Source of the DNA: Candidatus Baltobacteraceae bacterium
GTDB lineage: Bacteria > Vulcanimicrobiota > Vulcanimicrobiia > Vulcanimicrobiales > Vulcanimicrobiaceae
DNA: 64,000 nt
NCBI GenBank assembly: GCA_036489885.1
Contig: DASXEW010000003.1
Coordinates: 248,001 to 312,000, forward strand
Direction: 5' to 3'
The position numbers were made by a program, and so were the translations under genes. The notes beneath the pieces are model-generated. The model searched no databases and was not told the DNA's origin. It saw only the letters and a program-made list of their open reading frames with translations. This document shows, one piece after another, positions 10,879-56,153 of the stretch; the first letter of the stretch is position 1, and each line of letters begins with the position of its first letter.

Positions 10879-12138
10879 TTAATGACAGGGATCGCCTCCT
10901 CCACGGATCGCCGCAATGCGTGACCCGATCGGCGGATACGAAAGAAAGTATCGCCGGATGATCGGTGAGGGGCAGACTTGGAGCAAGTCGACGTTCGCGA
11001 ACCGCACCATCAGCCGCACCGCCGAGGCGGGGTCGGCCGTCGCCGCGAGCGCGGTATGATCGGCGCGCGCTTCCAAACGTCGCGAATAGGCCGCTTGAAC
11101 CGGCAGCAGCAGCAGGATCGCAAGCCCCAGAAACGTGCCGAGGAGCGCAAGACGCGAAAGCGGATCGTCGTCACGGCGGAATCCGACGCGGTCGGCAAGC
11201 GTCACGGATATGACCGCGGCTACGATCAACCACAGTGAGACGTACAAATCCAGCTTGAGATTGTCGTGCGCGGCGACGTGCGCGCTGAAACGCGCGATGA
11301 GATACTCGAGTTCTCCCGGCGTTGCGGTTTGTAGCGTGGCATCGCTGATGACGATCTCCTGTGTCGAGCCGAGACCCGCGACGCGCGCGGCGTCAGCGCC
11401 CGTGCCCGTTGCGCTCTCCTCGACGATGATGGGGACGTGAACGCCTTGACGCTGCTCGGTCGCGTAGAGCTGCGCGCTCAGCGCCGAGCTGGGGAGCGCT
11501 TGCTGATGATGGATCCACGGCGCAAAGACGACCGGTTCGGCAAAGGCTGCGACCAGCACGAATACAACCATGAACACGGCGCCAAAGACGTACCAAAAGC
11601 GCGTGCGCGACGCGAGCATCAACATGAACGAAAAGATGATCGCGGCCAGCGCTGCGTTCACGACAGCCCCTGAGAGCGATTGGCCAAGCCACTCGGCCGG
11701 TGATTGCTGCGTCAGCCCTGCCTCGGCGACGAGCCGGTACGCAACGATCGCCGCCGGCAGCGCGGCAATCTGCGCGATCATCGCAAGCGACCAGACGTAC
11801 GTCAGCCGCAAGAGGTGCACGTTGCGCAGATTACGCCGAAGCGCGTCGCGTAAGGCGGCGGCACGTCCCGAACGCCACATCCAGAGCAGCGCGCCGATCT
11901 CGAGGAAAGCGGAACCGAAAAACAAGGGCGGCTTACGCGCGTTGAGCGCTTCCGCCAAATGCTGGCGCTGCGCGTCGAAGAGCGTTTCGAGCGGCGCGTT
12001 CAGGACGGCTTGCGCGTGCGCCGCGATGCCGCACGCGGCAATCGCGACGCACAACGCTATCAGAAAACGCTTAGCGAAGTTTACGAAGCTCCTCGAAGAG
12101 CACTTCTTCGTCGGGTTGTTCGCGAAGCTCGTGAACAT
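10879..12138 (-). CDS. M48-type membrane peptidase homologue with a lost HExxH motif
   Basis: An integral membrane protein of the Ste24/HtpX (M48) type with about six hydrophobic segments. The place of the catalytic motif HExxH reads LIARFSAHVAAHDNLK: the first His is Arg and the catalytic Glu is Phe, while the second His and the downstream Glu (RRLEARADHTALAA, third metal ligand) remain. It is therefore probably inactive as a protease. The start is unclear: ATG at 12138 keeps the basic residues ([10 protein letters not shown]) before the first hydrophobic stretch but overlaps the peroxiredoxin by 68 bp; TTG at 12054 avoids the overlap but loses them. It lies in a thyX-peroxiredoxin-M48 gene string. 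Confidence 0.7.
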   Translation of the reverse strand: MFTSFANNPTKKCSSRSFVNFAKRFLIALCVAIAACGIAAHAQAVLNAPLETLFDAQRQHLAEALNARKPPLFFGSAFLEIGALLWMWRSGRAAALRDALRRNLRNVHLLRLTYVWSLAMIAQIAALPAAIVAYRLVAEAGLTQQSPAEWLGQSLSGAVVNAALAAIIFSFMLMLASRTRFWYVFGAVFMVVFVLVAAFAEPVVFAPWIHHQQALPSSALSAQLYATEQRQGVHVPIIVEESATGTGADAARVAGLGSTQEIVISDATLQTATPGELEYLIARFSAHVAAHDNLKLDLYVSLWLIVAAVISVTLADRVGFRRDDDPLSRLALLGTFLGLAILLLLPVQAAYSRRLEARADHTALAATADPASAVRLMVRFANVDLLQVCPSPIIRRYFLSYPPIGSRIAAIRGGGDPCH

Positions 12139-12574
12139 CGATGTAACGGATGACACCTTGCTTGTCGATGATGAACAGCGCCCGTTCGGAAAATCCGGCA
12201 TCTCGGAGGACGCCGTATTTCTTGGCGACGTCACCGTGCGGCCAGAAATCCGAAACGAGTGGGAACGAGAGTCCACCGATTGTTTCCGCCCACGCTTTTT
12301 GCGAAGGTGTCGGGTCGCACGAAATGCCCACAACTTGGGCATTCTCCGCGGCGAAGCGGCTTTGAGCTGCTTCGTATGCCGGGAGCTGCGAGCTTCAAAC
12401 CGGTGTGAATGAAAACGGAAAGAACGCGATCACGACGTTTTTCCCGCGTTGATCTGAGAGCTTCCATGGTGTGTCGCTATTGGTGGCCTTAAGCTCAAAG
12501 TCGGGGGCGACGTCCCCGACCTTCAATGTCGACGTGCGATCCGCAGTCGATGTTCGGCCTTTTGCTACTGCCAT
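12071..12574 (-). CDS. Selenocysteine-containing peroxiredoxin (in-frame TGA at residue 60)
   Basis: Thiol/selenol peroxidase of the AhpC/TSA family (Bcp/AhpE-like), 167 residues. The frame runs from ATG 12574 ([16 protein letters not shown], then [18 protein letters not shown]) to FFPFSFTPV, then TGA at 12397-12395, then [14 protein letters not shown] and on to the family C-terminus with [20 protein letters not shown] and [15 protein letters not shown]. The TGA sits exactly where the family has the peroxidatic Cys (FTPVC), and homology continues on both sides in the same frame, so this is a selenocysteine codon and not a pseudogene. A selD gene in the window supports Sec synthesis. It lies 27 bp downstream of thyX. 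Confidence 0.88.
12353..12397 (-). promoter_or_regulatory. UGA-Sec codon and possible SECIS hairpin of the peroxiredoxin
   Basis: The Sec TGA is at 12397-12395. A short hairpin GAAGC...GCTTC (12373-12353 on the minus strand), extendable by two inner GC pairs, starts 21 bases after it. It is weak and lacks the usual G/U-rich apical loop, so the exact SECIS is uncertain. Confidence 0.35.
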
Positions 12575-12601: not shown

Positions 12602-13384
12602 CTATCCCGCGGTCGCGGCGGTCTGTTGGTCGGCGACGATTTCCTTGCTCGAGCGGCGCGGACCGCCCTCGTCGATTTTTGCCTTTCGCTTGGCCTCGAC
12701 GGGATTCGCAACCGCTATGTAGCGCGGGCACTCCGGGCCGTTCGGCTCGTTGCAGTAGCCGCGAACGCACGTTGCTCCTGCACGAATAAAAAGATCGGGC
12801 GCAGCCTTCTTCGCCAAACGCAACATCGCAAACGCCAGCTCACGTATCTCCCACTGCGCGTTGTTGCACGTGCGTAACGTGAAGAAATCAAGCAACGCGC
12901 GTGCATTTGCCGTGACGACGATTTGGGTCTCCGCAGCATTTGGGAGCGCAAAACGCGCATCCTCGGGCGGCGTCTCAGCTTCGATCGCGTCGGCATAAAA
13001 TTCGGCGATCTGTCCCATGAGTTTGTCGTATTTCGCTTTTATCTCGGGACGCGCAGCAATCGAGGGCGGCGTGATGTATTCGAATTGCCCTTTGACCGTG
13101 ATGTAGCGCTGGCTCTTCTGTTCGAACGACATGTGCCGGTGACGGACGAGCTGGTGCGTGAGCGCGCGCGAAACGCCGCTGACGCCGAACGTGAACATCG
13201 TGTGCTCGAAGGTCGAGAGATGCCCCGCGTCTCGAACGCGCGCGACCATCTTCTTGATCTCGTCTTCCGACCAATTCCGGTCGATCGACGCGACGTCGCG
13301 CGGGCTGTAGCAGTTGCGAGCCGCGGTCGCGACCGCACGCTCCGGGTCGGGACTGTGCGAAAGGAGCACGACTTTGAGCGCCAT
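12602..13384 (-). CDS. thyX: Flavin-dependent thymidylate synthase
   Basis: Converts dUMP to dTMP with methylene-tetrahydrofolate, FAD and NADPH. The ThyX signature RHRxxSxxxxSxR is present as RHRHMSFEQKSQRY, and the dUMP/FAD contact region NNAQWEIRELA is seen near residue 185. The 260-aa length fits the family. The tail carries Cys residues (CVRGYCNEPNGPECPRY). It heads the thyX-peroxiredoxin-M48 string, and a diguanylate cyclase gene ends 16 bp upstream. Confidence 0.95.
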   Translation of the reverse strand: MALKVVLLSHSPDPERAVATAARNCYSPRDVASIDRNWSEDEIKKMVARVRDAGHLSTFEHTMFTFGVSGVSRALTHQLVRHRHMSFEQKSQRYITVKGQFEYITPPSIAARPEIKAKYDKLMGQIAEFYADAIEAETPPEDARFALPNAAETQIVVTANARALLDFFTLRTCNNAQWEIRELAFAMLRLAKKAAPDLFIRAGATCVRGYCNEPNGPECPRYIAVANPVEAKRKAKIDEGGPRRSSKEIVADQQTAATAG

Positions 13385-55127: not shown

Positions 55128-56153
55128 ATGGCATCACAGATTCGGCTGACTTCGCTGTCCTCAACCTCGGGTTGAGCTAGCAAAGTCGGAGCCGCCGACC
55201 TGGCGCAGGTCCTGCGCCGCATACCCGCTACTCAAGATGAGAACGTCCTCGTCGGTATCGAGACGAAGGATGACGCTGGCGTTTACCGTTTGCGCGACGA
55301 CCTTGCGCTGGTACAAACGGTCGACTTCTTCACGCCGATCGTCGACGACCCGTTCGACTACGGACGCATTGCCGCGGTCAATTCGCTGTCTGATATCTAT
55401 GCGATGGGCGCGACACCGTTAACGGCTCTTAACATATGTGCGTTTCCGGTTGAGGAAGTCGATGCTGAGATTCTTGGACGCATTCTGGAAGGCGGCTCCG
55501 CGATCGCGAAGCAAGCCGGCGTCTCATTGCTGGGAGGCCACACCGTCAAGGATGCCGAGCCCAAGTACGGATGGGCCGTAACCGGCACCGTTGACCCGAA
55601 GAAAATGGTCACCAACGCCGGCTCGCGGCCCGGCGATTTGTTGATTCTCACGAAGCCCATCGGCACCGGAATCCTGACGACCGCGCGCAAGCGCGATCTG
55701 ATCGATGACGCTGCACTCCAACCTGCGATCGATTCGATGCTGACGCTCAATGCCGACGCAGCGCGCGCGATGGTCGAGGTCGGGGTCAACGCGGCGACCG
55801 ACATTACCGGCTTCGGGCTGCTCGGCCATGCCGGCGAGATGATGCAAGCCTCGCACGTCGGGTTCGCGCTCGATGCGGTCTCGATTCCGATCTTCGACCG
55901 CGTCCTCGACTTGATCAAGAGCGACTGCATTCCGGGCGGAACGAAGGACAACGCCAAGGCGCACGCAGCGTTCACGCGCTTCGCCGACCATATCGATCCG
56001 GCCGTGCGTATGGTGCTCTCCGACGCGCAGACGTCGGGGGGACTGTTGATCTCAGTACCGCGCGAGAACGCGAAGAAACTACTCGGCGCAATCGGACCCT
56101 CGGCTCAAATCATCGGCGTGGTCCTGACGGGCGACGGAATCAGCGTCGGTTAA
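55128..56153 (+). CDS. selD: Selenide, water dikinase with a selenocysteine (UGA) in the active site
   Basis: Makes selenophosphate from selenide and ATP for Sec-tRNA and other selenium uses. From ATG 55128 the frame reads MASQIRLTSLSSTSGU then ASKVGAADLAQVLRRIP, with TGA at 55173-55175 as residue 16. The UASK context (Lys three residues later) matches the catalytic CGxK/UGxK of SelD. The rest (QTVDFFTPIVDDPFDYGRIAAVNSLSDIYAMGATPLTALN ... TDITGFGLLGHAGEM) is normal. Sec-containing SelD proteins are known in some bacteria. No selA/selB or tRNA-Sec in this window. Confidence 0.92.
55173..55218 (+). promoter_or_regulatory. UGA-Sec codon and SECIS-like hairpin of selD
   Basis: The TGA (55173-55175) is followed by GGCGCAGGTCCTGCGCC (55202-55218), a 7-bp perfect stem with a loop containing GGTC, much like the loop of the E. 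coli fdhF SECIS (GGUCU). A second stem GTCGG-AGCCG-CCGAC (55185-55199) lies between. Bacterial SECIS elements lie just 3' of the UGA, so position and loop fit. Confidence 0.65.

Follow-up and report, generated by a model that had tools for sequence, protein, structure and literature searches.

A UGA-containing AhpE-type peroxiredoxin gene with a probable two-part, hairpin-bridged SECIS in a Candidatus Baltobacteraceae genome

The window analysed here, a stretch of 64,000 nucleotides from a Candidatus Baltobacteraceae genome (3.48 Mb, 4 contigs), carries on its minus strand a gene for an AhpE-like peroxiredoxin of 167 residues (12071-12574) with a putative selenocysteine (Sec) at residue 60. 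Immediately upstream lies thyX, encoding a flavin-dependent thymidylate synthase (12602-13384, minus strand; TIGR02170, 180.9 bits), and downstream an M48-family peptidase-like gene with a provisional start (10879-12045, minus strand; PF01435, 43.8 bits). Both neighbors are conserved, flanking the peroxiredoxin in at least four genomes (they were also found at loci L018, L025, and L036), and no functional link is claimed. The same window contains selD, the gene for selenophosphate synthetase, on the plus strand (55128-56153; TIGR00476, 375 bits), which itself has one in-frame TGA, a putative Sec codon at 55173-55175.

The earlier note on this DNA had described a single in-frame TGA at the position of the catalytic Cys, with peroxiredoxin homology in one frame on either side of it, and both observations held. 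Between the ATG (12574-12572) and the TAA (12073-12071) there is exactly one internal stop, the TGA at 12397-12395 on the minus strand, which forms codon 60 within FTPV-U-SSQ. When this TGA was read through, a profile search gave an AhpC-TSA match (PF00578, 127.5 bits) across residues 19-145, and structures of Mycobacterium tuberculosis AhpE were matched across residues 16-160 (E 2e-29); both matches span the two sides of the TGA, which falls opposite the peroxidatic Cys in a PxxxTxxU motif. The protein has the features that define an AhpE-like peroxiredoxin, namely the AhpC/TSA domain, the Pxxx(T/S)xx(C/U) motif, and a conserved Arg. Across the family, Pro53 was found in 40 of 42 Sec proteins and Thr57 likewise in 40 of 42 (Ser in the other 2), while Arg131 was invariant. 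A second Cys five residues past the catalytic position occurs in 39/68 homologues; since the Sec proteins have Pro there in place of the extra Cys, a selenenic acid formed at Sec60 would be expected to be reduced by an external thiol.

Aligning the gene with Cys and Sec homologues, a check proposed in the earlier note, showed that the peroxidatic codon is TGA in 42 loci (this count includes the window gene itself and a few loci recorded more than once for one organism), TGC or TGT in 66, and AGC in 2. Because the same aligned codon is TGA in 42 loci, the TGA is not attributable to chance, mutation, or read error, and the close relatives keep TGA at this codon rather than placing a Cys codon elsewhere. 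Compared with a relative of the same genus, the gene has dN 0.087 and dS 1.72 upstream of the TGA and dN 0.217 and dS 1.27 downstream of it, and purifying selection thus acts on both sides. The conservation already refutes, for the window gene, a nonsense mutation, a sequencing error, or a pseudogene, an explanation with next to no probability given that dozens of species keep the TGA, that the sequence on either side of it is under purifying selection, and that the RNA described below covaries. A broken copy of this kind does appear to exist in one relative (G075, 99% complete), where the locus L130 (G075:C188:4005-4328) keeps the TGA and continues out of frame after it; selB was not found in that genome at E 1e-60, yet a TGA-containing selD is present.

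The one-TGA peroxiredoxin was found in 32 of the 117 genomes of the window's class, 30 of which also carry selB; the two in which selB was not detected are G058 (63% complete) and G112 (91%). The TGA loci come from this class (Eremiobacterota-type) and from Acidobacteriota, Chloroflexota, Bacillota, and Gemmatimonadota, and the nearest relative (L047) is 79% identical. In a tree with weak support at many forks, the Sec forms cluster, and two Cys forms (L035 and L037) fall within the family of the window gene, the pattern that replacement of Sec by Cys would produce. The two AGC loci belong to Terriglobia MAGs (L069 and L080); their AhpE-like proteins have Ser as the peroxidatic residue and Glu where Thr is usual, and are probably not peroxidases.

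Sec decoding requires its own machinery, and selA, selB, selD, and a tRNA-Sec were all found in the genome. The tRNA-Sec scores 74.8 bits (cut-off 47) and was assigned the anticodon TCA (UCA) by ARAGORN; selB lies directly downstream of selA, scores above its curated cut-off, and encodes a protein ending in a SelB winged-helix domain. The presence of selD in the window, on which the earlier note had drawn, was likewise confirmed. It is conceivable that a UCA tRNA inserts Cys, the residue found in homologues at this position, or another amino acid at the TGA. We consider this very improbable, as the UCA tRNA that was found scores as tRNA-Sec, and the full set of selA, selB, and selD, together with SelB-type hairpins, argues against Cys decoding. 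The reading of UGA 60 in the 12574-12071 frame as selenocysteine, the interpretation offered in the earlier note, is strongly supported by this machinery and by an in-frame UGA that aligns with the catalytic Cys of homologues and recurs at the same codon across the TGA loci.

We found that unusually conserved nucleotides about 54-74 nt past the UGA in the aligned TGA genes form a distal hairpin, HP2 (12323-12343, minus strand; UGA +54 to +74), with the sequence AAUGCCCA-AGUUG-UGGGCAUU in the window gene and the pattern [AG]AYRCCCA-RGUYN-UGGGYRUN across the TGA genes. At least 7 of its 8 pairs form in 38/40 TGA members compared to 3/66 Cys members. In a count over the individual pairs, 95% of cells were paired and four pairs have changed on both sides; the covariation score was reached by no shuffle, and pairing reached at most 46% when the partner strand was slid. 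Given the TGA set, RNAalifold called HP2; given the Cys set, it called no structure. Because the hairpin region is coding, folding was assessed against synonymous-codon shuffles, which gave a mean z of -2.64 in TGA members versus -0.29 in Cys members.

The apical loop of HP2 (AGUUG, 12331-12335, minus strand; consensus RGUYN) resembles the loops of fdhA and selD in the same genome. In the window gene, HP2 has 9 bp, a 5-nt loop, and a folding energy of -11.6 kcal/mol, which agrees with the bacterial SECIS (bSECIS) model in its apical loop of 3-9 nt, the G in the first two loop positions, the stem of 4-16 bp, and a minimum free energy of at most -7.5. The exception is spacing, since the loop lies 59 nt after the UGA and the current model places 16-37 nt between the UGA and the apical loop (PMC13188914). 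No Rfam family matched at gathering score, and a permissive E-value returned only one sub-threshold miRNA match. A search of the window's genome with a model of the 81-nt element (R1) returned this gene as the only convincing hit, along with three weak matches that have no corresponding coding frame.

Between the UGA and HP2 lies a proximal hairpin, HP1 (12344-12385, minus strand; UGA +12 to +53). This region folds with a mean z of -2.5 in 40 TGA members versus -0.14 in 66 Cys members under the same shuffles, and the Cys homologues therefore have neither the HP1 nor the HP2 signal. HP1 was seen in the fold of each individual TGA member; its sequence and register vary, and RNAalifold called no single-register consensus for it. 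Two further arrangements were examined and rejected: a SECIS directly after the UGA, where the first 40 nt fold no better than shuffles, and a three-way junction through a stem closing HP1 and HP2 together, which gave no signal (z 0.05).

With HP1 lying at the ordinary SECIS position and strongly folded in all TGA members, SelB might bind there, leaving HP2 an accessory role such as slowing the ribosome or limiting RF2. A stable G-loop hairpin does occur within 16-37 nt in 17/40 TGA members, and some HP1s of Chloroflexota and Acidobacteriota have a G-first loop at a spacing of 27. However, such a hairpin also occurs in 12/66 Cys members, and the window gene has no perfect-stem G-loop hairpin at 16-37. 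The loop of HP1 is unconserved, whereas that of HP2 keeps its GU in 40/40 aligned TGA members and is like the loops of fdhA, selD, and E. coli fdhF. Binding of SelB to HP1 accordingly appears unlikely, and HP2 is the better candidate for the SelB-binding element, with HP1 as a putative spacer.

Comparison with other Sec genes bears on how a loop at 59 nt might be used. In the same genome, fdhA has GUCGUC-GGUCU-GACGAC at a spacing of 18, and a second fdhA has, as read from the sequence, an AGUUU loop at 18; the E. coli fdhF control gave UGCA-GGUC-UGCA, also at 18. The two formate-dehydrogenase-like genes of the window's genome, each with a Sec-TGA and a SelB-type loop at 18, are the loci L169 (G000:C1:749754-751619) and L170 (G000:C3:776838-777632). 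A distant TGA homologue from a Gemmatimonadetes MAG (L111), the only one without any HP2, has an E. coli-like hairpin, CCGCUC-GGUC-GAGCGG, at 17. The window's selD offers an intermediate arrangement on the plus strand, with a proximal hairpin of 15 nt (GUCGG-AGCCG-CCGAC, 55185-55199) followed by a distal one (GGCGCA-GGUCC-UGCGCC, 55202-55218) whose loop lies at a spacing of 32. The distal hairpin has a z of -2.8 here and -2.38 among the class's Sec-selD genes, versus -0.5 to -0.9 in Cys selD; the proximal hairpin is less clear, with a mean z of -1.33 among Sec-selD genes and a non-significant -0.06 in the window's copy. It was also noted that in four Cys-type selD genes (L140, L141, L149, and L150) the site of the proximal SECIS hairpin still resembles a hairpin, which may be left over from a Sec ancestor or may simply follow from the encoded peptide.

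If the intervening hairpin is collapsed, the effective spacing becomes about 17 nt both for selD and for the peroxiredoxin (42 nt removed), near the 18 nt of E. coli fdhF, and it ranges from 16 to 27 in the 39 TGA members other than L111. This measure does not discriminate alone, as 52/66 Cys members also give 16-28 when folded. The arithmetic is suggestive only, because many folded Cys sequences yield similar numbers. The idea of a bridge was both formed and tested on the same alignment, with selD and fdhA as the only outside checks.

Taken together, we propose that the mRNA signal of this gene is a two-part bacterial SECIS composed of HP1 and HP2. HP1 would begin about 12 nt past the UGA, near the mRNA entry of the ribosome, and fold away some 32-43 nt; HP2 would follow directly and offer its RGUYN loop to SelB. 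Because HP1 folds away the intervening RNA, SelB would sit at its normal spatial distance despite a loop 59 nt away along the sequence. Ribosomes would then read UGA 60 as Sec by means of the genome's SelA, SelB, SelD, and tRNA-Sec, yielding a one-Sec AhpE-type peroxiredoxin that reduces peroxides at Sec60. On the sequence evidence we hold this combined reading, a Sec60 AhpE-type peroxiredoxin decoded through an HP1-bridged SECIS with SelB at HP2, to be quite probable, although the binding of SelB to HP2, the bridging by HP1, the insertion of Sec, and the peroxidase role are each what we infer from it. The wider proposal, of a bacterial SECIS class whose SelB-binding hairpin is placed well downstream of the UGA while another hairpin, variable in sequence, restores the distance, with spacing being spatial at about 17-20 nt when folded RNA is left out of the count, seems likely.

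The locus adds a putative AhpE-type selenoperoxidase from little-studied bacteria, a kind of gene that routine annotation would probably cut short or overlook. A single genome also provides a natural series, with loops 18, 32, and 59 nt from the UGA and a hairpin lying in between in the latter two cases, in which one could test directly whether the distance that SelB measures runs along the RNA or through space. If it runs through space, the standard SECIS search window of 16-37 nt would be too narrow, and selenoproteins would have been overlooked in several phyla. Our literature search, which covered mainly open papers, found nothing on AhpE-type selenoproteins, Sec in Eremiobacterota, or hairpin-bridged bacterial SECIS elements; for this reason no priority is claimed for the bridged SECIS.

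Among known proteins, the closest solved sequence relative is the 1-Cys peroxiredoxin AhpE of M. tuberculosis (Rv2238c), with which the PxxxTxxC motif and the active-site Arg align; the window protein differs in having Sec in place of the peroxidatic Cys. Sec-peroxiredoxins with a TxxU motif are an established selenoprotein family (PMC1794560, PMC1088965, PMC13188914), and the window protein shares this motif with PrxU and the Sargasso Sea peroxiredoxin. It belongs to a different subfamily from the PrxU model, scoring 72.3 bits against NF040737 (cut-off 270) and 50.8 bits against the Prx-SUH model NF045827 (cut-off 298), the two NCBI models for peroxiredoxin selenoproteins. The protein is a new member of the known Sec-peroxiredoxin family, within the AhpE subfamily. 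The displaced recoding signal is the less expected and more unusual part of the locus. Some elements that misfit the bSECIS model have been noted as possible distinct classes (PMC13188914). Like bacterial SECIS elements of the E. coli fdhF type, HP2 has a stable stem and a small loop with G followed by U (GGUC there, AGUU here), but unlike them its loop lies 59 nt from the UGA, with a conserved hairpin in between.
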